Positions 7,529 through 53,403 of a stretch of 64,000 nucleotides of DNA are shown piece after piece. Source of the DNA: a candidate division TA06 bacterium (GTDB lineage Bacteria > Edwardsbacteria > AC1 > EtOH8); NCBI GenBank assembly GCA_016235665.1, contig JACRJI010000003.1, positions 224,061 to 288,060 on the forward strand. The letters run 5' to 3'. The notes under the pieces were generated by a model. The model did not search any database. It worked only from the letters and a program-made list of their open reading frames with translations, and was not told the origin of the DNA. The number at the start of each line of letters is the position of its first letter. The stretch's first letter is position 1. Both the position numbers and the translations under genes were made by a program.

Positions 7529-8994
7529 AAGTCCAATTGATATTTGTCCCGCCGGAAAATCCGCCAAAACTGGGAGAGCTGGGGGAACAGATCTCTCCGC
7601 CCCTGGGCATTCTGTATCTGGCCGGTTACCTTCGGCAACAGATGCCGCAGGTGGCTATCAATGTATTTGATGGTGTACGGCATGGGTACCTGAAGACCAT
7701 TGAGCGGATAAAAGCAGTTGACGCTGATATCATAGGTCTTTCCTATTATACTCCGGTAGCGGCCAGCGCCCTGCGGCTGGCTGATCGCATAAAAAGGGAG
7801 CATCCCGGCAAGGTAGTGATCCTGGGCGGGCCTCACGCCACGGCCCTGCCCCAGGAAGGGATACTGCGCTCAGCTGCAGACCTGGTGGTATATGGGGAGG
7901 GCGAAACCACTTTGGTTGAAATCGTCAAGATGATGGAGCAGAATGGCTCTTTTGAGAAAGTGGACTGGGAAAAAGTAGACGGGCTTTGCCTGCGCAAGGA
8001 AGGTAAGCCGGTGCTGACCCCGCCCCGCAAATTCATTCCTAATTTGGACGACATTCCGTTTCCGGCCAGGGATCTTTTGGACTTAAAGGATTACACCGGT
8101 TTTTATCTTTATAAATATACGCCTGAAACCAATATCATCATGTCCAGGGGTTGTCCCTACCGCTGCACCTTTTGTTCCAATTGCGTCTGGAACACTTCCA
8201 CTCCCCGGGTCCGGACCCGCACGGCAAAAAACATTGCCGATGAGATAGAGTACCTTTATAAGACCTTCGGAGTGCGTGAGGCCTTTGACAATGCCGACGA
8301 ATTCAACAATAATCTGGACAATGCCATGGCCATCTGCGCCGAGATCAAATCGCGCGGTCTGCCGGTGGCCTGGAAAACGCAATTAAGAGCCCATCCCCTC
8401 CCCGAAGAGCTGGTAAAAGCCATGGCAGAAGCGGGTTGTTGGTATGTTCATTTGGGCATAGAGAGCGGAAATCCCGAAGCCCTGAAAGGAATCAAAAAGA
8501 ACATTACCCTGGAGCAGGTGGAATCAGCCTGCCGTCTGTTAAAAAAATACAATTTAAAGATCCACGGTCTTTTCATGCTGTTCAACGTTTGGGAGGAGGA
8601 TGGCCAGCTGCGGTTTGAGGATCTGGCCATGACCCAAAAGACCCTGGATTTTGCCAAAAAACTGGTGGACCAGAGGCTAGTGGACTATATCGGCTGGTCA
8701 ATAACCACCCCCTATCCGGGCAGCCCGCTATATGACATTGCCATCAGGCACAAGCTGGTCGCCAGTGAGCTTTTAACTGATTGGGACTCCTGGCTGAAGG
8801 ACACTTCGTTTCTCATGAACCTGCCTGGGGTCAGCCACAAAGAAATGGCTGACATGAAGGCCAAGGGTTCACTGCTTAGGGCCAGACTGATGTTGCGTTC
8901 CGGCGGCATCGGTTTAAAGGATGCAGGATATTTCATAAAAAAGCTGGGAAAACTGGCTCATAATCAGATAACAGCCTGGCGGGAGAAAAAGTGA
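7525..8994 (+). CDS. B12-binding domain radical SAM protein
   Basis: 489-residue cytoplasmic iron-sulfur enzyme of the BchE/P-methylase-like class. The N-terminal third is a cobalamin-binding Rossmann domain ('LGILYLAGYL', 'VVILGGPHATALP', 'VVYGEGE'). The central radical SAM domain has the cluster motif C-x3-C-x2-C in 'RGCPYRCTFCSN', followed by 'YVHLGIESGNPEALK'. These enzymes often methylate unactivated carbons or rearrange substrates. Its place inside a glycan operon suggests modification of a sugar, lipid carrier or other envelope precursor, but that is inference. ATGA overlap with the upstream gene and GTGA overlap with the downstream deacetylase suggest those two act in the same step. 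Confidence 0.85.
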   Translation: MKVQLIFVPPENPPKLGELGEQISPPLGILYLAGYLRQQMPQVAINVFDGVRHGYLKTIERIKAVDADIIGLSYYTPVAASALRLADRIKREHPGKVVILGGPHATALPQEGILRSAADLVVYGEGETTLVEIVKMMEQNGSFEKVDWEKVDGLCLRKEGKPVLTPPRKFIPNLDDIPFPARDLLDLKDYTGFYLYKYTPETNIIMSRGCPYRCTFCSNCVWNTSTPRVRTRTAKNIADEIEYLYKTFGVREAFDNADEFNNNLDNAMAICAEIKSRGLPVAWKTQLRAHPLPEELVKAMAEAGCWYVHLGIESGNPEALKGIKKNITLEQVESACRLLKKYNLKIHGLFMLFNVWEEDGQLRFEDLAMTQKTLDFAKKLVDQRLVDYIGWSITTPYPGSPLYDIAIRHKLVASELLTDWDSWLKDTSFLMNLPGVSHKEMADMKAKGSLLRARLMLRSGGIGLKDAGYFIKKLGKLAHNQITAWREKK

Positions 8995-9794
8995 CCGGAA
9001 AAAATGCCATCATATTCATTGACACCGAATCCGGTCTGGAAGGCCCCTGGCGGGAATATCTGGATTTTGCCGAGGGGATCAGCCAGATCACCAAGGTGCT
9101 GCACCGCTATAAGGTTCCGGCGGTATTCAATGCTTGCGGCAAGCTGTTGGAGATGCATCCCCAGCTTTTTGTGGAATTGGAAAAGCAGGGGCATGAGATC
9201 GCTTTGCATGGCTGGAAGCACGAAAACTTAAGAATGTTGGATGATAAATGGCTGGAGAAAGTACTGGCCCGCAGCCAGCAGGCCTACACTCAGACTCTGG
9301 GGCACAGCCCTTACGGCTTCCGGGCGCCCTGGCTGGATCACGATCAGCGATTGCTGGAATGGCTGAACAGGAAGGGATACCTTTGGGTCAGTCACCAACA
9401 CCTGTTCTTGCGGGAACGATTCTTCTCTCCGGCGGCCAGGCCCGAGATCCGGGCGGGTCAAAGAATGGCCGGATTGTGGGCCAGGTGGCAAGAAAGGAAT
9501 TTCCGCAAGCTTCCGCATCAGAACAAATACGGGTTAAAGGAACTTCCGCTAACCTCATCCATGGACGGGGAATTGCTGGGGCTGTTATCTCCCCTGCAGC
9601 CCTCTCCGGCCAAAGACATAGATTTTGCCGTCAATGCCTGGCACCAGCAGCTTTTGAGGGCGCCGGGCTTTTTTACCCTGAACCTTCACGACTGGCTGAT
9701 CTCCAGCGGCAACCGTCCGGATGTTCTGAATAAAATGACCTCCCTGCTGTTGTCTGAAAATTATAAAATAACCACCGCCCGGCAGATAGTTTAA
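8991..9794 (+). CDS. Polysaccharide deacetylase (NodB-fold)
   Basis: 267-residue carbohydrate esterase family 4-like protein. It shows the catalytic-base region 'IIFIDTESG' (Asp11), the metal-binding H-x3-H in 'ALHGWKHEN' (about residues 74-78) and 'GFRAPWLDHDQRLLEWL', the motif that lines the active site. It lacks a signal peptide, so it probably acts in the cytoplasm on a lipid- or nucleotide-linked sugar, removing an acyl group. The start is GTG 8991 in a GTGA overlap with the radical SAM gene. The odd 'DTE' in place of the usual 'DDG' is shared by cytoplasmic members of this superfamily. Exact substrate unknown. Confidence 0.8.
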   Translation: MTGKNAIIFIDTESGLEGPWREYLDFAEGISQITKVLHRYKVPAVFNACGKLLEMHPQLFVELEKQGHEIALHGWKHENLRMLDDKWLEKVLARSQQAYTQTLGHSPYGFRAPWLDHDQRLLEWLNRKGYLWVSHQHLFLRERFFSPAARPEIRAGQRMAGLWARWQERNFRKLPHQNKYGLKELPLTSSMDGELLGLLSPLQPSPAKDIDFAVNAWHQQLLRAPGFFTLNLHDWLISSGNRPDVLNKMTSLLLSENYKITTARQIV

Positions 9795-23306: not shown

Positions 23307-24170
23307 TTATTTCACTCTGTATTTTCTATACACCTCAAATAGTTTAGGAACATATTCATCAGTATCCTTATATGCTTGATATACTTTAAGTCGCTCCATA
23401 AATTCATCTGTAAACTCAATATTATTGCTTTTCCAATAATCTGGTTTTATAACATTAAAAGTTTTTAGTTTCTCTAAATTAATCCCCAAACCTAATTTCA
23501 TTGGTTTTAGATAATCCCATATTTCATCCTGTAATGAATCAATTTTATTGTAAGGATAAGTGCCTTTGTTTTTTATCAAAGTCCAAACAATATATCTATC
23601 AATTCCGTCAACTTGTCCTGAGATATCAATTGGAATAAAAAAGAACATATCTCCAGAGATATTTAATACTTTATCAGAAAATGGCCATTCTTCAGAAAAG
23701 TAATACCTATGAGAAATTTCTTTTTCAATTATATAATCTTTTTCCATTTTTATATATGACTGTCTAATTGCACTAATTTTACTCTGCAAAGCAGAATCAC
23801 TATTGGATAATACAGTATTTAAAATTGTTTTTGATTTACTTTGAAAATCATCCGTTATTTTATCAAATTTATTTTGATAGTCTTGCATTAATATATCAAG
23901 TGCATTTTTTGTTTCTTCAATTCCTTGTTGAGATAGAACTTTAATTTCATCACTTTTGATATCATGCTTATATTCTTTTGCTTCTTTTTTCATCAATCCA
24001 TAAATACCTAAACACAGACCAATAATCATGAATATTAATACAACGTAATTTCTAGGTATGTATTTAAATATACCATTCTTTCTCTTCTTCCAGTCAATTT
24101 TAGTTAATGAAAATAGTGCAATACAAGTCAAGATACTAAAGCTTACTATTTCAAATATCATGGAGTTCAT
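23307..24170 (-). CDS. AT-rich two-TM hypothetical protein
   Basis: 287 residues, not recognised. Two hydrophobic helices lie near the N-terminus (about residues 5-22 and 42-60, 'VVLIFMIIGLCLGIYGLM'), then a likely coiled-coil (about 70-150, rich in K, E, Q, D) and a soluble C-terminal domain containing 'FFFIPIDISGQVDGIDRYIVWTLIKNKG'. The base composition is far more AT-rich than neighbours on either side, and codon choice differs (many ATA, TTA, AAT), pointing to acquisition by transfer. It sits alone between spacers with GTTA/TAAC boxes and a 12-bp perfect palindrome. Function unknown; a membrane-anchored sensor or defence-type protein is possible but unsupported. Confidence 0.7.
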   Translation of the reverse strand: MNSMIFEIVSFSILTCIALFSLTKIDWKKRKNGIFKYIPRNYVVLIFMIIGLCLGIYGLMKKEAKEYKHDIKSDEIKVLSQQGIEETKNALDILMQDYQNKFDKITDDFQSKSKTILNTVLSNSDSALQSKISAIRQSYIKMEKDYIIEKEISHRYYFSEEWPFSDKVLNISGDMFFFIPIDISGQVDGIDRYIVWTLIKNKGTYPYNKIDSLQDEIWDYLKPMKLGLGINLEKLKTFNVIKPDYWKSNNIEFTDEFMERLKVYQAYKDTDEYVPKLFEVYRKYRVK

Positions 24171-35252: not shown

Positions 35253-35279
35253 AAAAAGCCGGGCAGTGCCCGGCTTTTT
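35253..35279. terminator. Bidirectional Rho-independent terminator
   Basis: Palindromic stem AAAAAGCCGGGC/GCCCGGCTTTTT with a short loop, immediately beyond the vsr stop codon. It marks the sharp border between the AT-rich restriction-modification block and the GC-rich kinase gene. Confidence 0.9.
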
Positions 35280-35689
35280 CATTTATAGTTGTTGATTGCT
35301 CTATATATTTTCAATAAAGTTCTATTTAGACTATTATTAATATCATATTCCCATATGCGGATAACTTTCCACCCGTTCCCCTTTAATAGTTTATTAACAA
35401 TTTTGTCACGTTTTATATTATTACTTATTTTAGTTTTCCAATATATTTTATTTGTTTTTGGCATTATAAAATGTTTTGGATTACAATGCCAAAAATCGGA
35501 ATCAACAAAAACAACTACCCCATATTTTCTCAAGACAAAATCAGGTTTGCCAGGCAATGATTTTAAGTGTTGTGAAAAATATATCCCTTTTTTCCGTAGT
35601 TGTTGTGCTATTATTTTTTCTGGTTTTGTCCCTACGGAACGAATGCGTTGCATGTTAATTCTGCGTTGTTTTTTGGTCAAATTGTCCAT
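35279..35689 (-). CDS. vsr: Very short patch repair endonuclease (Vsr)
   Basis: 136-residue nuclease of the Vsr family. It starts 'DNLTKKQRRINMQRIRSVGTK' like other Vsr proteins and has 'GKPDFVLRKYGVVVFVDSDFWHC' with the catalytic Asp and the F-W-H motif, then 'WKTKISNNIKRD' and 'GWKVIRIWEYDI'. Vsr nicks T:G mismatches that arise when 5-methylcytosine deaminates, protecting the sites of the linked C5 methyltransferase. It is the third gene of the operon, starting 2 bp after the stop of the nuclease gene. AT-rich like its partners, so probably acquired with them. Confidence 0.92.
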   Translation of the reverse strand: MDNLTKKQRRINMQRIRSVGTKPEKIIAQQLRKKGIYFSQHLKSLPGKPDFVLRKYGVVVFVDSDFWHCNPKHFIMPKTNKIYWKTKISNNIKRDKIVNKLLKGNGWKVIRIWEYDINNSLNRTLLKIYRAINNYK

Positions 35690-35691
35690 GC

Positions 35692-36519
35692 TTAGAGTTC
35701 TTCAATTAACTTATCCCAATCATCCTTTTTTTGCATAAGCATGCCTGTTCTATACACATAACTCGACCCAATAGCCTGATCCTGATCCGGCAAGATTTTA
35801 ACGGGGGCATTACTGCGAAGCAGGTCTACGGGTATGTAGCCACAGACCTGTGCCTCAATTACATCAAATTGGGGGATGATGTCAGTTAGATGGTTCAGTG
35901 AATTATGGTCTCTTACTATTCTGATAAAATGGTTAAGAAACAACTCAACGCGTGAACAAATATATATTTCGGAAACTCTTGTCGTGTCTTCTATTTCCTT
36001 TTGTGGGACAATCAGCCATACATTTTTCATCTTGGTCGTTTTTATTGCAATTCTTTTACGGGCAGGATTATATACACGACCTCCACGGCGTGGTTTTGCT
36101 ATTTCAACGATATCTTGGCCTACAACAGCATCACGAAGGCTAAAATCTAAAGTTATATCAATATCGTAATGCCGTTTAATAAATTTGGTTACAGCAATTT
36201 CACCAAGTTTGCCGATGACGAAGTTTGAAACAAATTTGCCTGCCTCTCTTTGTTCGGTTGTGCCAAAATTGGATGTGGATTTATATTGATAAAAGCTTCT
36301 TATGGCAAATTCTAAACATTTTAAGTAATCTTCGCGTATGAGTTGTACCATACTATACTCACGCTGTGCTTTCCATTCGTTTAGCTCCGCGTCGGTGATA
36401 ACATAACTACGACCTTCTTTGTGCAACGGTAATTCTTTACCCACTTTTGCATAGTTCTCTAAATATTTTTTAGAAATATTTAAATAGTCACTTGCTTTTG
36501 TTAGTGTTAAGTTAGGCAC
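35692..36519 (-). CDS. Putative type II restriction endonuclease with N-terminal helix-turn-helix
   Basis: 275 residues. The first 55 residues look like an excisionase/MerR-type DNA-binding domain ('LTLTKASDYLNISKKYLENYA', then 'YVITDAELNEWKAQRE'). The remainder is not a family I recognise firmly; 'VTKFIKRHYDIDITLDFSLRD' followed by 'RIAIKTTKMKNVWLIVP' has the D-x(n)-[IV]-x-K spacing seen in PD-(D/E)xK nucleases. Position between a C5 methylase (15 bp away) and vsr (2 bp away) makes a restriction nuclease the natural reading. The HTH could also let it regulate its own operon. Recognition sequence unknown. Confidence 0.65.
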   Translation of the reverse strand: MPNLTLTKASDYLNISKKYLENYAKVGKELPLHKEGRSYVITDAELNEWKAQREYSMVQLIREDYLKCLEFAIRSFYQYKSTSNFGTTEQREAGKFVSNFVIGKLGEIAVTKFIKRHYDIDITLDFSLRDAVVGQDIVEIAKPRRGGRVYNPARKRIAIKTTKMKNVWLIVPQKEIEDTTRVSEIYICSRVELFLNHFIRIVRDHNSLNHLTDIIPQFDVIEAQVCGYIPVDLLRSNAPVKILPDQDQAIGSSYVYRTGMLMQKKDDWDKLIEEL

Positions 36520-36533
36520 GCTAAGCTCTCCAG

Positions 36534-37679
36534 TTATTTATTTTTGGTATTGTATTTTATTTCTTTTTCCAATATTCTTAATTGAACCGCTTCATATTCC
36601 TTGTAATTTTTCAAAGAATATTCAATATGGACAAGTGGCTCAAAAGATGGTTCAATGTAATCGTATGATATACCGGCAAGAGTGTTTAATATGGCTTTAA
36701 ATATTATTTTTGCTCCTTCTGGTGGTACTGCCATACCGATTTGTTTTCTTACGCTTTCTTTTGAACCTTTAAAAATAAAATTATCTGGGAATGTTTGTAA
36801 ACGTGCTCTCTCTCTATTCGTTAAGGCTCGATTTTCGGCCCAATGATATACATGTGTGCCACCGCCGCCGCTACCAGTGATAGTATATGCTGGTTTGTTA
36901 GGATCCAACCGTTTATATATCTGGCTTATTGTAGCCCCGTGTATATTTAAGGTTAATTCTTTTGGTAATTTAGCTGTAAAAGCATTTTCTCCAGGCCTTA
37001 TATGTTTTAATCGTTCAATAACAACTTCATTTTGTTTAGTTAATTCATTATTCGGTGCATTTTGTGGTATATGTGGTTGTGTAATTGCTTGTTTACAGGT
37101 TATAGGCTTGGGGGTAATAATTTGCGGTACTTTAAAAAATAATTTACAACTTTTATGTATACCTACTATAATAACACGATGCCTTGCTTGTGGTACGCCA
37201 TAGTATTCAAATTTATACAAATGCGGTGTAATGTTGTAGTTACAATCAAATAGTTCTTTAAGTATAGTTTTAAATGCGGTGCCATCATTTGCATTTGCTA
37301 AACCACCCACATTTTCTGCTAGAAACCATTTGGGTTGGTGATGTTTTAAAATCTTCACACCATAAGTATATAATGGGCCAAAATGGCCATTCATGCCCTT
37401 TTGTTTGCCAACAACGCTAAAATCATTGCAAGGGAAACCAAAAGCAAGACCATCAATGGGTGAAAGTTTTGCTAAATTTATTTTTGATACATCCTCACAA
37501 ATTACTTCACAATCGTTGCCCATATTCAATTTGTAAGTGTCGCAGGTATCTTTGTCGTAATCATTAGCCCATGCAGGCTTAATGTAAAATGACACACCAT
37601 CCTTTTTAACAATCACACTTTTGGCGCCAAGGGCCAACCCTCCGGGGCCGCAAAACAACTCACCCATTCTGTAAATCAT
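36534..37679 (-). CDS. DNA (cytosine-5-)-methyltransferase
   Basis: 381-residue C5 methylase with motifs in order: I 'GELFCGPGGLALGA' (SAM binding), IV 'GFPCNDFS' with catalytic Cys84, VI 'AENVGG', VIII 'GVPQARHRVIIVGI', target-recognition region about 190-265, IX 'RERARLQTFPDNF' and X 'IGMAVPPEGA'. Motif IV reads P-C-N where most members have P-C-Q, a minor oddity. It protects host DNA from the linked nuclease. First gene of an M-R-Vsr operon on the minus strand. AT-rich relative to flanking genes, consistent with transfer. Confidence 0.94.
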   Translation of the reverse strand: MIYRMGELFCGPGGLALGAKSVIVKKDGVSFYIKPAWANDYDKDTCDTYKLNMGNDCEVICEDVSKINLAKLSPIDGLAFGFPCNDFSVVGKQKGMNGHFGPLYTYGVKILKHHQPKWFLAENVGGLANANDGTAFKTILKELFDCNYNITPHLYKFEYYGVPQARHRVIIVGIHKSCKLFFKVPQIITPKPITCKQAITQPHIPQNAPNNELTKQNEVVIERLKHIRPGENAFTAKLPKELTLNIHGATISQIYKRLDPNKPAYTITGSGGGGTHVYHWAENRALTNRERARLQTFPDNFIFKGSKESVRKQIGMAVPPEGAKIIFKAILNTLAGISYDYIEPSFEPLVHIEYSLKNYKEYEAVQLRILEKEIKYNTKNK

Positions 37680-47445: not shown

Positions 47446-47521
<76 letters not shown>

Positions 47522-47640
47522 GTAATCTTCATAGGCAAATGAAATAACATCTTGTTTGATACTATCTTACTTGACTGTTAGGTTCCTTTGCCTATTTTTT
47601 TTGTTCAGTTCTAATACTACCACTTTTGACTCCGATATGG

Positions 47641-47656
47641 CACAAATATGGCACAA
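47641..47656. repeat. Left copy of 16-bp direct repeat flanking the AT-rich island
   Basis: CACAAATATGGCACAA occurs here and exactly at 53084-53099, in the same orientation. A partial extra ATGGCACAA precedes it. Such ATGGCACA-type words resemble arm-type binding sites of tyrosine recombinases near tRNA-integrated elements. Confidence 0.75.
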
Positions 47657-47800
47657 ATTGGAGCCAGAACTTTTCACATTGATGCCGGGGGCATTCAAGC
47701 CCTTTGTTAGTATGAGACAAAACAGAGGTGTGTGGGAATAATTAGCTGAAAGATATTTAAACTTAACTTAACGCTCTACAGGAGTCATCATAACTTTATT

Positions 47801-48637
47801 ATGAGTATCATTACGGATTTAGAAAACCGTCTGCTGAATAATGACGAATGCATAGAAACTGATCGTTTCATTATAAGGGGCATTTGGGATATAAAATTGT
47901 TATATCAACCAAATACCCACGAAAGATGTTTTAAATATAATGTATTGGTTGTTCAAACCATAAAACAAGGTTGTTGTTATTATTCTGGGAAAAGAATAAT
48001 GATAAATGATGATCTTATAGGCAAAGATGCAAGAACGATACTAAATAGGCATAATTGTTATTTTAAGATTGCGACATTGGATTCAATCTATGCAAATTTT
48101 GATCAAAAATGTTTTAAAGAATATGTTTTAGAAGGCAATTCAGTTATCAAAAGCATTAAACGGGCTCAGATAATAACCAATGAAATTCAGTATTTTATTG
48201 AAGAAAAAAATATTAATAATGTAAAAATATTGAATATTGGTGTTGTTGGTAATATAATAAATGAATTAGTAAAGAAAGGTTGTACTGTTTTTGCGACAGA
48301 TTTAGAACCGGATATTGTTGGTAAGAAGATTAATGGTGTAACCATCGAAAACGGACACGATAAGAATAATTCTTTGATTGATTTGTGTGATATTATTTTG
48401 GTTACGGGAATGGCATTAGCAACGAATTCGTTAGATGAAATAGTAAATAGAGCCAAAAGTAGAAATAAGATTATTATCGTATTCGCTGAAACAGGATCAT
48501 GGTTTGGGAAATATTATTGTACCAATTATCAAATTGACTCCGTAATAAGCGAGTCATTCCCTTTCTATATATTTGAGGGCAAGAGTAATATTCGAATATA
48601 CAGGAAATATATTAAGGAAGTTTTAAATGAAGAATAG
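47801..48637 (+). CDS. DUF364-like Rossmann protein
   Basis: 278 residues, AT-rich. The N-terminal half is unassigned; the C-terminal half (about 125-265) reads as a Rossmann domain: 'VKILNIGVVGNIINELVKKGCTVFATDLEPD', then 'CDIILVTGMALATNSLDEIV' and 'IIIVFAETGSWFG'. The glycine-rich strand, the 'T-G-x-x-L-x-x-N-S/T' step and the order of elements resemble DUF364 (PF04016), a family proposed to have a role in heavy-metal chelation. First gene of a four-gene operon; its 3' end overlaps the next gene by 11 bp. An AGGAG lies about 16 nt upstream of the ATG, so the exact start is uncertain. Substrate unknown. Confidence 0.6.
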   Translation: MSIITDLENRLLNNDECIETDRFIIRGIWDIKLLYQPNTHERCFKYNVLVVQTIKQGCCYYSGKRIMINDDLIGKDARTILNRHNCYFKIATLDSIYANFDQKCFKEYVLEGNSVIKSIKRAQIITNEIQYFIEEKNINNVKILNIGVVGNIINELVKKGCTVFATDLEPDIVGKKINGVTIENGHDKNNSLIDLCDIILVTGMALATNSLDEIVNRAKSRNKIIIVFAETGSWFGKYYCTNYQIDSVISESFPFYIFEGKSNIRIYRKYIKEVLNEE

Positions 48638-50129
48638 AATTATAGACAAAGTATATGCCTTTATTGTGATAGCATTATTATGCGTCCTGATTATTATAAC
48701 ACTTCTAGACCTGACGGGCTTCATCAATGATCAATCACTATTCAGTATTCCAAAGATTATATTTAACAATATTTCTAAAATACAACTATTGTTGTTATGT
48801 TTGATCGGTATTTCATTTATTCTCGAAAGGTCGGTATATTTAAATAAGCTGCCAGCCATACTAAAAAATATTAATTTTAACTTACATGAAGTAAATAAAA
48901 AAATCGACAATCAAATAGATGTGATGTTTTTCCCGACGAGGCGGCAGAGTTATGAATTTCTATTGGATGAAGTTTCCCAACTGCCATCAGATTCCAATAT
49001 ATATATAACGCATTTTGAAAAACTGAAAAATTTCGGATACGAAGACGGCGAAGAACCAAAGGAACAAGAATTTATGGCTGAGTGGATCAGACGTGTTCAA
49101 AAAGGTAATTTTACTATTCAGCAAATTGTACACATATCATCCCGTGCAGATCTAAAAGAATTAAAGGATCGATTAAAACGATTTGAGAATCAACCGGCAT
49201 ACTCATTTAGCGCTATCTGGGGTCCACCGATTTTACCTTTTATAGATTTATTTATTGTTGAAAACAAATGGGTACATATCTCATTGTCTAACGACATCTC
49301 ATCTGCACAAACGAAAACATTTGCAGTAGCCATAAAAGATAGTACGGTAGTAAGGAACTTTATTTTATGTTACCAGGCAATATTACACAACGCATTAACA
49401 ATTAAAAACAGATCAAATATTGATGCAAATAATTTAGATGTGATAAATACTATAATTCAAACGATAGATACTACCGATATTGATTTAAAACGTTTATTTA
49501 ATAATCAGATGTCCCCGACCGGTAAGGTAATAACGGATAGTATTGAAAATGTTCTAAGCAGGCTTGATTTAAAAAACCCACGATTAGTATCCTTATTTAA
49601 TGATCTTCTTTATGATAGATTCACAAAAGCGCTTAGTTGTTATCTCGATATCGATGAGTATCATAGCTATGAAACTTTAAAATCTTTGTTGTTATTGGCT
49701 AAAAAAAGAATAAGAGCTGTTAGTATCAGTTTTGCTAATGAAAAATTTTGGGACACTGGTTTTGGAACAGAACTTTTGGATATTAACAGAAAAGTTATTA
49801 AGGAGAACAAGGTAGATATAGAGCGTATCTTTATAATAAACAATAAAGAACAAAACCATATGCATAATATTATTCAGAATCAAATCAATAACGGCGTAAA
49901 TGCATATGTAATTGATAAAAATAATATTGCGGATGTTTGTGATTTTATAATAATAGATGATTGTGTGGTTTATCATCTATTGGAATCAACAAGAAAAATG
50001 TTGATTGGAAGAAGTAAAATATCTATATCACCCAAAGAAGTCAGTAAATATAAAAATATTTATGCAAAATATAGAACTCAATCTGTAAATGGACAAGCGT
50101 ATCTCTTAAAAAGGAGGAAAGTAAAATGA
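48627..50129 (+). CDS. Two-TM membrane protein with duplicated cytoplasmic domain
   Basis: 500 residues, AT-rich, function unknown. Two transmembrane helices at the N-terminus (about 10-30 and 50-68, 'LLLLCLIGISFIL'). The cytoplasmic part seems to hold two related alpha/beta domains, about 95-235 ('RRQSYEFLLDEVSQLPSDSNIYIT', 'IDLFIVENKWVHISLS') and about 330-490 ('YHSYETLKSLLLLAKKRIRAVS', 'CDFIIIDDCVVYHLLE'). The shape recalls phospholipase-D-like sensor domains but no H-x-K-x4-D motif is seen, so it would be non-catalytic. It overlaps its upstream neighbour by 11 bp and the hydrolase gene by 4 bp (ATGA), so it works with them. Possibly a membrane sensor or scaffold; inference. Confidence 0.6.
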   Translation: MKNRIIDKVYAFIVIALLCVLIIITLLDLTGFINDQSLFSIPKIIFNNISKIQLLLLCLIGISFILERSVYLNKLPAILKNINFNLHEVNKKIDNQIDVMFFPTRRQSYEFLLDEVSQLPSDSNIYITHFEKLKNFGYEDGEEPKEQEFMAEWIRRVQKGNFTIQQIVHISSRADLKELKDRLKRFENQPAYSFSAIWGPPILPFIDLFIVENKWVHISLSNDISSAQTKTFAVAIKDSTVVRNFILCYQAILHNALTIKNRSNIDANNLDVINTIIQTIDTTDIDLKRLFNNQMSPTGKVITDSIENVLSRLDLKNPRLVSLFNDLLYDRFTKALSCYLDIDEYHSYETLKSLLLLAKKRIRAVSISFANEKFWDTGFGTELLDINRKVIKENKVDIERIFIINNKEQNHMHNIIQNQINNGVNAYVIDKNNIADVCDFIIIDDCVVYHLLESTRKMLIGRSKISISPKEVSKYKNIYAKYRTQSVNGQAYLLKRRKVK

Positions 50130-51010
50130 ATATCCAGTGTCTTCGTTATCAAACAAGGGATCATATTGAATTACAGGGCATGTTGTTTTTCCCGGAGAAA
50201 AAATCACAAGTCGTAGTTTTACATGTCCATGGTTTGTCAGGTAATTATTATGAAAATAGGTTTATTGACAAAATGGCCTGTGGTTATACAAGCCAGAATG
50301 TTGCTTTTATGACCTTTAACAATAGAGGGCATGACTATATTTCAGATCTAATAAAACGTAATGACAATAAGATAAAATTTATCAATGGTGGTGGGGCTTA
50401 TGAAATATTTGAGGAGTGTATATATGATATTGATGCGAGCATATCATTATTGATTAGAAATGGTTTTAAACATATTTACTTGCAAGGTCATAGTACGGGT
50501 GCAAATAAAGCAGTATATTATCAATCTATGCGTAATGAAAAGAAAATCAAAGGGTTAATACTTCTTTCTCCTTGTGACGATATAGGTATAAAAATAAGTA
50601 AGTATAAAAATAATTATAACAGATTAATAAAAGCGGCTAAGAATATATTCACGATTGACCCCGCTAAATTTGTTGTATTTAAGGGAACAAATTTGCTTAC
50701 AAGTGCTAAAACAATTTTGAGTTTCTATAATATTGGATCAAAGAACGATGTGTTTCATTATCGAGATGCCGATAGAGAGTTAAAAGAATTGATTGCTATT
50801 AAGGTGCCCATCCTGGTTGTGTTGGGTGAAAAAGATGACTATCTTTTACAAGGGGCCGATAATGTCAAGAGGTCGCTTGCTAAATCAAATGTTAACGATG
50901 TCTCAATTGTTAAAAATGCTTCACACGGATTTGTAAATAAAGAAAATCAATTGGTAAAAGTTATAATCAAATGGTTAACACAAAATAACAATCCTACGGG
51001 AAATGTGTAA
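50126..51010 (+). CDS. Alpha/beta hydrolase (DUF1749-like)
   Basis: 294 residues. The alpha/beta hydrolase fold shows 'VVLHVHGLSGNYYENRF' (oxyanion loop), the nucleophile elbow G-H-S-T-G with Ser123 in 'IYLQGHSTGANKAVYY', the acid in 'LVVLGEKDDYL' and the catalytic His in 'NASHGFVNKEN'. Several residues match the DUF1749 group of esterase-like proteins. It probably cleaves an ester or thioester; the substrate may be a product of the operon. AGGAGG precedes the ATG, which overlaps the previous stop by 4 bp. AT-rich codon use as in the rest of the island. Confidence 0.8.
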   Translation: MNIQCLRYQTRDHIELQGMLFFPEKKSQVVVLHVHGLSGNYYENRFIDKMACGYTSQNVAFMTFNNRGHDYISDLIKRNDNKIKFINGGGAYEIFEECIYDIDASISLLIRNGFKHIYLQGHSTGANKAVYYQSMRNEKKIKGLILLSPCDDIGIKISKYKNNYNRLIKAAKNIFTIDPAKFVVFKGTNLLTSAKTILSFYNIGSKNDVFHYRDADRELKELIAIKVPILVVLGEKDDYLLQGADNVKRSLAKSNVNDVSIVKNASHGFVNKENQLVKVIIKWLTQNNNPTGNV

Positions 51011-51049
51011 TAAATAAGACGATAGTTAACCACTATAAATTAGTGAAAT

Positions 51050-52342
51050 ATGTTACACGACATTTATAAACAAAATATTAAGAAACATCCAATTATTAAT
51101 CGTTTTAATGTTAATGGAAATGAATTAGTCATAGGTGGCATAAGGGTTAGTGATATTGTATCAAAACATGGAACACCGATTTACATATATGATTATGAAA
51201 AGATAGCTGAAAGAGTTGAGGCATTAAAAAAATATTTACCTTATTTCGACTTATATTATTCTTTCAAAGCTAATCCCAATTTAACTGTATGCAATATTAT
51301 TAAAAATATCGGTATTGGCGCTGAAGTATCATCGATTGGGGAATTACAGGCCGCTAAAAGGATAGGATACAAAGGTAATCGTATTATTTTTAATAATCCA
51401 GCTAAGAGTATAGAGGAAATTGAATATTCAATTGATAATGGCATTTTCTTGTTAAATGTTGAATCCCTTGACGAGCTTGAAGTTATCAATGCCATAGCAA
51501 AGAAGAAAAATAAAAAAGTCAATGTTTCTTTACGGATTAATACAGGCACTAACAAGGTAGAAGCCTTAGAAGTAATGATGGGGAAAAATGCAAAATTTGG
51601 CATAAAATATTTTGACATAAAGGACGATATTGTTTCTTATAGCAATGTAAACATAAAAGGGATCCATGTTTATATCGCAAGTCAAATACTCAATAAAAAC
51701 ACTATCATCAATAATTTTTCTGAAGCCGTGAATGTGTTTAAAAAATTACATCGCGTGAATAATATTAATCTTGAATATATTGATTTCGGCGGGGGTTTTG
51801 GTATCCCCTATGATAATAGCGACAAAGAATTAGATTTATATTATATTGGCAAGAAGTTGGGGAAAATAATCGATGCGAATCGGAACCAATTACTTGGAGG
51901 AAAACTTATATTGGAACTAGGAAGGTATATTGTTGGTGCCGCAGGAATATTTGTTACTAGTGTTAAATATATAAAGGAGAACAATATAATTGTTGATGGC
52001 GGAATTAATAATTTCTTTCGCTCTAAGTTTTTAAATATTAATCATCCGACATATATTGTTAATAAATTAAATAAACCAGTAGTTGGAAAAGTTAATATTT
52101 GTGGCCCACTCTGTACGCCATTGGACACGCTATCACAGAATGTTAAAGTACCACGCATAAATAAAACTGATCTCGTTGGTATTTTCCTTGCTGGTGCATA
52201 TGGATATAGTATGAGTTTATTGAATTTTATCAGTTTCAATCATCCGGCAGAAGTATTGATAAAAGAGGGTAAATGTTATCTGATACGAAGGCGTGGCCAT
52301 AGCAATGATATATTAAAAGAGCAAAGAATATATAATTTATAA
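51050..52342 (+). CDS. Fold-III PLP-dependent decarboxylase (LysA-like)
   Basis: 430 residues. N-terminal alanine-racemase-type barrel with the PLP lysine Lys73 in 'LYYSFKANPN', the 'GAEVSSIGELQAA' strand, 'VSLRINTG', 'YIDFGGGFGIPY' (phosphate-binding glycine loop) and 'LELGRYIVG'. The C-terminal beta domain has 'CGPLCTPLDTL' (catalytic Cys and Asp contacts) and 'GAYGYSMSLLNF'. It belongs with diaminopimelate/ornithine decarboxylases, and most resembles the versions found in natural-product and siderophore clusters. 'HVYIASQ' replaces the usual H-I-G-S-Q, so substrate handling may differ. It decarboxylates an amino acid or carrier-bound aminoacyl group; substrate unknown. Fourth gene of the operon. 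Confidence 0.85.
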   Translation: MLHDIYKQNIKKHPIINRFNVNGNELVIGGIRVSDIVSKHGTPIYIYDYEKIAERVEALKKYLPYFDLYYSFKANPNLTVCNIIKNIGIGAEVSSIGELQAAKRIGYKGNRIIFNNPAKSIEEIEYSIDNGIFLLNVESLDELEVINAIAKKKNKKVNVSLRINTGTNKVEALEVMMGKNAKFGIKYFDIKDDIVSYSNVNIKGIHVYIASQILNKNTIINNFSEAVNVFKKLHRVNNINLEYIDFGGGFGIPYDNSDKELDLYYIGKKLGKIIDANRNQLLGGKLILELGRYIVGAAGIFVTSVKYIKENNIIVDGGINNFFRSKFLNINHPTYIVNKLNKPVVGKVNICGPLCTPLDTLSQNVKVPRINKTDLVGIFLAGAYGYSMSLLNFISFNHPAEVLIKEGKCYLIRRRGHSNDILKEQRIYNL

Positions 52343-52770: not shown

Positions 52771-53076
52771 ATGGCAAAGTGGGCCGATTATGGTATTTCC
52801 GCATGCAGATACAATTCTGAACACACTCATATTGACAGAGTTAAAGTACATTCCGACGATGGTGAAAACTTCGGATCCGCTATAGAATATTCCAGGCAAG
52901 AAGTAATATCCTCTATAAAAGCAGGTAAAACCTTTGTAACAATACCTAAAAACAATGAGGGTAATTGGAAAAAGGGTCAACCTGTCATAATTGTCAAAAT
53001 AAACGGTAAAGAATATATCAAGACGGTAGAGAACAATAAGGAAGTTGATAACCTCGAAAATTTACCAGAATTTTAA
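52771..53076 (+). CDS. DUF3892 domain protein
   Basis: 101 residues matching the DUF3892 family along the full length: it starts 'MAKWADYGISACRYNSEHTHI', then 'VHSDDGENFGSA', 'SRQEVISSIKAGKTFVTIPKN', 'GQPVIIVKINGKEYIKT' and ends 'DNLENLPEF'. The family is small, cytoplasmic and of unknown function, and is common in accessory regions. A strong AAGGAGG lies 5-6 nt upstream of the ATG. It is the last gene of the island; the right-hand 16-bp direct repeat begins 8 bp after its stop. Confidence 0.88.
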   Translation: MAKWADYGISACRYNSEHTHIDRVKVHSDDGENFGSAIEYSRQEVISSIKAGKTFVTIPKNNEGNWKKGQPVIIVKINGKEYIKTVENNKEVDNLENLPEF

Positions 53077-53083
53077 AACAAGA

Positions 53084-53099
53084 CACAAATATGGCACAA
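53084..53099. repeat. Right copy of 16-bp direct repeat flanking the AT-rich island
   Basis: Exact copy of the repeat at 47641-47656, 5.4 kb apart and in the same orientation, just after the last island gene. Confidence 0.75.
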
Positions 53100-53180: not shown

Positions 53181-53225
53181 CTGGCAGTCAGGAGGTCAGG
53201 GGTTCGATTCCCCTCAGGTCCACCA
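53181..53225 (+). pseudogene. 3' half of tRNA-Ala (anticodon GGC), cut at the anticodon loop
   Basis: 45 nt: anticodon loop CTGGCAG (53181-53187), 3' anticodon stem TCAGG, variable AGGTC, T-arm AGGGG-TTCGATT-CCCCT (53198-53214), acceptor strand CAGGTCC, discriminator A and CCA (53223-53225). No D-arm or 5' acceptor strand (expected GGACCTG) is found upstream. The break falls exactly at the anticodon loop, a well-known crossover point for tyrosine recombinases, so this is probably the displaced tRNA end of an integrated element. Confidence 0.8.
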
Positions 53226-53403
53226 GACTTTGTCCTCATTGGGCGGACTTCGCCGGGCAGACCAGTTTACACTCAGGGCCATAACCACGCTTGTCGGTTT
53301 TACAAAAACCGGTCAACAATTCAATTCAACAAGCGTAAGATATTTAGACATCCAGGGCACAAGTATCAACGCTTGTGCTCATATTTTTATCCGGGAGGTG
53401 CCA

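Follow-up and report, generated by a model that had tools for sequence, protein, structure and literature searches.

The operon at positions 47801 to 52342 of a stretch of contig JACRJI010000003.1, from a Candidatus Edwardsbacteria genome (candidate division TA06), contains four genes, and two of them, gene 1 and gene 4, encode a conserved enzyme pair that keeps its active-site residues and is accompanied by an optional hydrolase. The stretch analysed, called the window here, is 64,000 nucleotides (nt) long. Gene 1 encodes a divergent member of the DUF364 family, and gene 4 encodes a fold-III pyridoxal 5'-phosphate (PLP)-dependent decarboxylase. Our preferred reading, to which we give a probability of about 0.45, is that this laterally acquired operon encodes a small biosynthetic module, in which the DUF364 enzyme supplies a conjugated amino acid and a BtrK-type decarboxylase acts on the conjugate. 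The four genes are listed below.

47801..48637, + strand: gene 1, divergent DUF364-subfamily enzyme with an N-terminal domain and a Rossmann domain, module core (PF04016, AlphaFold2 model, Foldseek, 30-sequence alignment)
48627..50129, + strand: gene 2, 500-residue protein with two N-terminal hydrophobic segments, accessory (no family match; sole homologue at 8082-9086 of locus L038)
50126..51010, + strand: gene 3, alpha/beta serine hydrolase, optional partner (Ser123 in GHSxG, Asp/Glu238, His267)
51050..52342, + strand: gene 4, fold-III PLP decarboxylase, assigned to the BtrK-type clade, module core (Lys73, Tyr208, C355-T-P-x-D359)

Gene 2 shares 11 nt with the end of gene 1 and 4 nt with the start of gene 3, and a gap of 39 nt separates gene 3 from gene 4. 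An initial annotation of the window had reported these four open reading frames (ORFs), and their coordinates, strand, overlaps and spacing are confirmed. Profile matches also bear out the families it named for genes 1, 3 and 4, namely DUF364, alpha/beta hydrolase and fold-III PLP decarboxylase. No known four-gene system or described pathway in PADLOC, NCBIfam or the open-access literature matches the operon, in agreement with the initial view of it as unassigned. A search of open-access literature found no paper on DUF364 (PF04016) together with a PLP-dependent decarboxylase. The families are known, and the combination of gene 1 with gene 4 appears to be undescribed.

Conservation of the gene pair across phyla

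When 84,980 species genomes were scanned with a pair of gene 1 sequences, 30 loci were identified, in eight phylum-level groups. The scan was confined to two peptide patterns, and the true distribution is therefore wider. Although the loci were found with gene 1 alone, gene 4 adjoins gene 1 in 28 of the 30, often with an overlap of 4 nt. A neighbourhood search of this kind had been proposed in the initial annotation, and the families do co-occur in other genomes. Gene 4 follows gene 1 in most loci, precedes it in two Clostridia (L022 and L035) and is divergent from it in an archaeon (L039). In L037, gene 1 stands at the very start of its contig, and gene 4 lies on another contig of the same genome. 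Pairing at this frequency is more than chance. The pairwise identities of gene 1 and gene 4 are correlated, with r = 0.93 for the 27 loci compared and r = 0.76 for a thinned set of 11 (0 of 2000 permutations), which argues that the two genes are inherited together. They travel together in at least seven bacterial and archaeal phyla.

The other two genes are less constant. In 14 of the 30 loci (15 sets when the window is counted), gene 3 immediately precedes gene 1. A homologue of gene 2 is present in L038 only, where the order is gene 2, gene 3, gene 1. Elsewhere the position upstream of gene 1 is taken by an M28 peptidase (a gene family present in six loci), an S9 peptidase (L034) or unrelated genes. 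The proposal that all four genes act together thus holds for a core of genes 1 and 4; roughly half of the loci also have gene 3, and a single other genome has gene 2. More broadly, co-occurrence, co-divergence in many phyla and the type of decarboxylase support the idea of an unassigned operon whose genes form a small pathway centred on an amine-bearing molecule, and the fixed four-gene unit is the part that has to be given up.

Gene 1 is rare and patchy in most groups and is a near-core gene in one small phylum. In even draws from each group, it was present in 3 of 399 genomes of the Clostridia phylum, in 2 of 120 of the WOR-3 phylum and in 1 of 380 of the Saccharibacteria phylum (with three further weak matches below 20 bits). 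By comparison, 17 of the 20 species in the phylum of locus L024 carry it; this phylum includes an Effluviviaceae genome and some metagenome-assembled genomes (MAGs) labelled Eisenbacteria. Among the 10 genomes of the phylum of the window, one further copy was found, followed by gene 4, in isolate Prado126 (G006), which belongs to the family of the host. This copy is the same as locus L034 (match on G006:C176). Several of the host genomes are draft MAGs, and the G006 contig, whose GC content varies along its length, could be mis-binned. No copy of gene 1 was found in the viral contigs of IMG/VR, and neither gene 1 nor gene 2 was found in the plasmids of PLSDB.

The two core enzymes

Gene 1 matches PF04016 at 36.1 bits (gathering cut-off 23), and all 30 members of its family match this profile with E values up to 0.001. 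Its AlphaFold2 (AF2) model has a mean predicted local distance difference test score (pLDDT) of 90.8 and a predicted template modelling score (pTM) of 0.90. The best Foldseek matches of the model are the solved DUF364 proteins 3npg and 3l5o, with template modelling (TM) scores of 0.53-0.63. Weaker matches include mandelate-racemase-like proteins, the S-adenosylmethionine (SAM)-dependent C-methyltransferases TcaB9 and KijD1, and PLP-transferase-like Rossmann domains. The model and these matches give an N-terminal enolase-like domain followed by a Rossmann domain, as DUF364 requires. A deep pocket between the two domains of solved DUF364 structures has been proposed as a site of condensation or hydrolysis (PMC2954201). 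The 30-sequence alignment contains 30 invariant positions, including Asp167 after the second Rossmann strand. An acid at this place is the usual holder of the adenosyl ribose, and the DUF364 paper puts Glu148 there (PMC2954201). In the 399 genomes of the Clostridia phylum, members of the gene 1 family score above 300 bits and the next DUF364 proteins score below 62. On these scores the gene 1 family is classed as a separate, high-scoring DUF364 subfamily.

Gene 4 matches both fold-III decarboxylase domains. Its score against the NCBIfam model for diaminopimelate (DAP) decarboxylase, TIGR01048, is 307.3 bits, just over the cut-off of 297.9, and automatic annotation would label it LysA because this cut-off is passed. 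The closest solved structures, however, are those of BtrK (7ru7, 2j66). Tyr208 and the motif CTPxD are present in all 28 aligned gene 4 proteins, in BtrK and in seven plasmid relatives. At the same positions, DAP decarboxylases have a PLP-stacking His and the motif CESxD or a close variant such as CETGD, and gene 4 has neither. A tree of 54 proteins unites the decarboxylase partners of DUF364 with the BtrK/acyl carrier protein (ACP) type in one clade (support 100/99), apart from the DAP decarboxylases. These motifs and the tree place gene 4 in the BtrK-type clade, which agrees with the initial annotation of a decarboxylase of the natural-product type, and on them its assignment as LysA is rejected.

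The known enzymes of this type act on carrier-bound substrates. BtrK, the L-glutamyl-[BtrI acyl-carrier protein] decarboxylase of butirosin, has as its substrate glutamate on a carrier protein (PMC7857480), and that of VinO, from the vicenistatin pathway, is 3-methylaspartate on a carrier protein (PMC11284099). An AMP (adenosine monophosphate)-ligase motif was found near all six of the BtrK-type plasmid relatives whose surroundings were searched, and carrier proteins are annotated in those regions. In contrast, no AMP-ligase motif was found in 421 kb comprising the DUF364 loci and the window.

Other decarboxylases came to light in the course of these comparisons. A Geobacillus plasmid, pGeo12a (L184, 5965-12777), encodes a BtrK-type decarboxylase with CTPxD and has no ligase or carrier-protein gene annotated nearby. 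The genes after the decarboxylase are annotated as a QueA-like SAM ribosyltransferase, PqqD, two thymidylate synthase-like proteins, a phosphotransferase and a NUDIX hydrolase, and from these annotations the region resembles a natural-product cluster of the nucleoside type, carried by a conjugative plasmid. Edwardsbacteria have another fold-III decarboxylase (G000:C15:105647-106822, with equivalents in several other members of the phylum, L044-L051) with the motif GPTCMPWD, which is neither that of DAP nor that of ornithine decarboxylase; it falls under every NCBIfam cut-off. A further fold-III group in Clostridia (L082 in G023 and L083 in G017) has SLCENND at the position of the DAP motif and neither His nor Tyr at the stacking position (HTM[VI]ASN).

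The accessory genes

Searches of Pfam, NCBIfam, PADLOC and PHROGs gave no match for gene 2, and a resemblance to DUF6879 is too weak (E 0.23) to be used. Hydrophobic segments lie at about residues 5-35 and 44-72. An AF2 model made from two sequences is unusable, with a pLDDT of 39.6. The protein had been described as having doubled cytoplasmic domains, but when its two halves were compared as profiles the probability was 0.4%, no higher than that for shuffled sequence, and the description is not supported. No homologue was found in the nine other genomes of the same phylum, and none in 399 genomes of the Clostridia phylum, a search made without a positive control. Gene 2 is an accessory, so seldom present that the chemistry cannot require it. 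Gene 3 matches several alpha/beta hydrolase families; Ser123 and His267 of its triad are invariant, and position 238 is Asp or Glu in nearly all members.

The island and its acquisition

The operon lies in an AT-rich island. The GC content drops from about 55% to 30% across the operon, and the GC content at third codon positions is 0.25-0.32 in the island genes as opposed to 0.63-0.80 in the flanking genes. The other features of the island are as follows.

47446..47521, + strand: tRNA-Lys (CTT), left edge of the island (ARAGORN; Rfam RF00005, 74.4 bits)
47635..47658, + strand: iteron ATATGGCACAAAT close to the left end, present twice as a tandem of 11-nt units
52771..53076, + strand: small DUF3892 protein inside the island, from a phage-related family (PF13031; phrog_32719, E 4.9e-40)
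53084..53099, + strand: right-end copy of the 16-nt direct repeat CACAAATATGGCACAA, an exact match to the left copy
53181..53226, + strand: 46-nt 3' fragment of tRNA-Ala(GGC), right boundary of the island (comparison with four relatives)

The exact 16-nt repeat CACAAATATGGCACAA occurs at 47641 and 53084, 5.44 kb apart, and its left copy lies inside the tandem of 11-nt units. The repeats near the island ends are possibly arm-type sites of a lost integrase; no integrase is left in the island. Similarity to four genomes of the same family, two of them of the same genus, starts at 53181, within a tRNA-Ala(ggc) gene that is intact in each relative and of which the window retains the last 46 nt. An intact tRNA-Ala was not found on the contig of the window at the left end of the island, where tRNA-Lys stands instead. 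The two flanks of the window are about 600-650 kb apart in two genomes (G001 and G004), and the genes to the left of tRNA-Ala in the relatives are absent from the contig, which argues that a rearrangement accompanied or followed the insertion. The island is a horizontally acquired element that lacks an integrase.

Two other AT-rich features were seen in the window. An islet of 36-39% GC at 35279-37679, 10 kb upstream of the operon, contains ORFs for a cytosine DNA methyltransferase-like protein, a probable restriction enzyme of 275 residues and a Vsr-like endonuclease (- strand), assigned by eye from the translations. This islet is probably a horizontally acquired type II restriction-modification system. 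A lone AT-rich ORF of 287 residues (23307-24170, - strand), with hydrophobic segments at its start, lies next to a glycogen phosphorylase-like gene, where the GC content is 31%.

A proposed pathway and its alternatives

In the proposed pathway, gene 1 would build or hold an alpha-amino acid conjugate and so replace the ligase and carrier protein of the BtrK and VinO systems. Gene 4 would then remove the alpha-carboxyl of this conjugate and so give an amine. Gene 3 could free or trim the product, and gene 2, in its few hosts, may tether the step to the membrane or regulate it. The end product would be an amine-bearing small molecule, because decarboxylation of a conjugated amino acid leaves an amine. 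The wider claim that the same module operates across phyla, with DUF364 conjugating the amino acid for a BtrK-type decarboxylase independently of a carrier, is put forward more tentatively, as a suggestion that may well need revision.

Several points weigh against this pathway. DUF364 is a family without a proven reaction. One Saccharibacteria locus (L038) has genes 1-3 without gene 4, the sole such locus among the 30. In the tree of 54 proteins, the decarboxylases that partner DUF364 are supported as a single group at only 69/33. No credible carrier-protein gene was found in the 421 kb of DUF364 loci and window with a pattern that is insensitive, as it finds 3 of 6 positive controls, and a ligase or carrier protein may lie elsewhere in the genome. 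No exporter or regulator is consistently linked to the module.

A more specific form of the pathway would have gene 1 move the 3-amino-3-carboxypropyl group of SAM to an acceptor, with gene 4 decarboxylating the product to leave an aminopropyl group. Microcin C offers a precedent in MccD and MccE, which, as proposed, combine a Rossmann SAM enzyme with a fold-III decarboxylase (PMC10491745; PMC7857480). Asp167 of gene 1 is at the acid position of adenosyl binders, where the DUF364 paper has Glu148, and TcaB9 and KijD1 are among the next Foldseek matches after the DUF364 structures, although with TM-scores of about 0.3-0.4. However, DUF364 lacks the SAM-binding glycine loop of precorrin methyltransferases (PMC2954201), and gene 4 is nearest to BtrK in a tree that did not include MccE. 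We consider this form unlikely, with a real chance nonetheless of being correct.

Synthesis of a metallophore, which would fit the Pfam label of DUF364 as putative heavy-metal chelation, is improbable. Genome context does tie other DUF364 proteins to metal transport (PMC2954201), and related decarboxylases function in siderophore synthesis (FslC/FigC, SbnH and AcsE; PMC7857480). The gene 1 subfamily, however, is far from the bulk of DUF364 in profile score, and gene 4 has its nearest relatives among BtrK-like enzymes. The neighbours examined, which are annotated only in part, include no recognised metal transporter or siderophore synthetase, and the link to metallophores or opines that had been considered at first is not sustained.

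The enzymes might instead degrade or detoxify a conjugated amino-acid compound, with the hydrolase opening it and the decarboxylase removing the acid group. The varied hydrolytic genes upstream of gene 1 (the alpha/beta hydrolase, the S9 peptidase and the M28 peptidases) would suit the cleavage of a peptide or conjugate. Nevertheless, the hydrolase is outside the core pair, no uptake system is linked to the module, and the BtrK-type enzymes known so far are biosynthetic. Breakdown is thus quite improbable, and the roles in sensing or detoxification that the initial annotation had allowed for have found no positive support.

That the operon is a defence or conflict system is very improbable. 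Such a role would suit a tRNA-bounded AT-rich island with an adjoining phage-related DUF3892 gene, and also the restriction-modification islet 10 kb upstream with its Vsr-like endonuclease. PADLOC gave no relevant match, only a weak one to GajA (15.5 bits) for gene 1 and none for genes 2-4. Searches of viral contigs for gene 1, and of plasmids for genes 1 and 2, found no copy, which speaks against it as well, and the ordinary chromosomal neighbours in other phyla and the near-universal presence in one phylum suit metabolism better. Finally, that gene 4 is an ordinary LysA for lysine synthesis, with the other genes incidental, can hardly be right: the TIGR01048 score and the lack of a second fold-III decarboxylase in several host genomes, as judged with the gene 4 profile, favour it, but all members have CTPxD and Tyr in place of CESxD and the His, the tree sets them apart from DAP decarboxylases, at least one Clostridia host (G018) also has a CESxD-type decarboxylase, and other Edwardsbacteria live without gene 4.

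A biosynthetic module of genes 1 and 4, if correct, would provide the first defined reaction for DUF364. Its amine-bearing metabolite would belong to a new class and, in one uncultured phylum, would be close to core metabolism. The first crystal structure of DUF364 dates from 2010, but the family still has no reaction. It is tightly and widely paired with a decarboxylase on whose chemistry limits can be set, and this pairing offers a direct route to the missing reaction. The automatic label of diaminopimelate decarboxylase is probably wrong for the gene 4 family, a point of consequence when lysine pathways are predicted in uncultured phyla, for example Effluviviacota, WOR-3 and Eisenbacteria.

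Comparison with known systems

The module resembles several known systems in part. MccD and MccE of microcin C, a Rossmann SAM enzyme with a fold-III decarboxylase (PMC10491745), would share its logic. With the exosortase-A-associated decarboxylase (TIGR03099) the gene 4 family shares a profile, as all 28 proteins match the model; the gene 4 of the window scores 295.6 bits, below the cut-off of 478.45, and no AMP-ligase motif is found in its surroundings. Among solved structures gene 4 is closest to BtrK, with which it shares GIHVY, GPLCTPxD and a clade; VinO is cited for its mechanism only. Unlike the loci of the BtrK type, which hold an AMP ligase and usually a carrier protein, the DUF364 loci hold a DUF364 gene instead, and neither of the former was found nearby. 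Gene 4 has an invariant Glu174 and Lys182 (SKFG-type), whereas most BtrK-type enzymes have other residues there, such as RQFG. Gene 1 shares the two-domain fold of the solved DUF364 proteins Dhaf4260 (3l5o) and PH1506 (3npg), and the PF04016 match extends to 30 of 30 members. It differs from them in its identity of about 10% at TM-scores of 0.53-0.63, and in a conserved set of its own, which consists of R42, G57, Y60, FxETG and E-x-FP-x-YIF.

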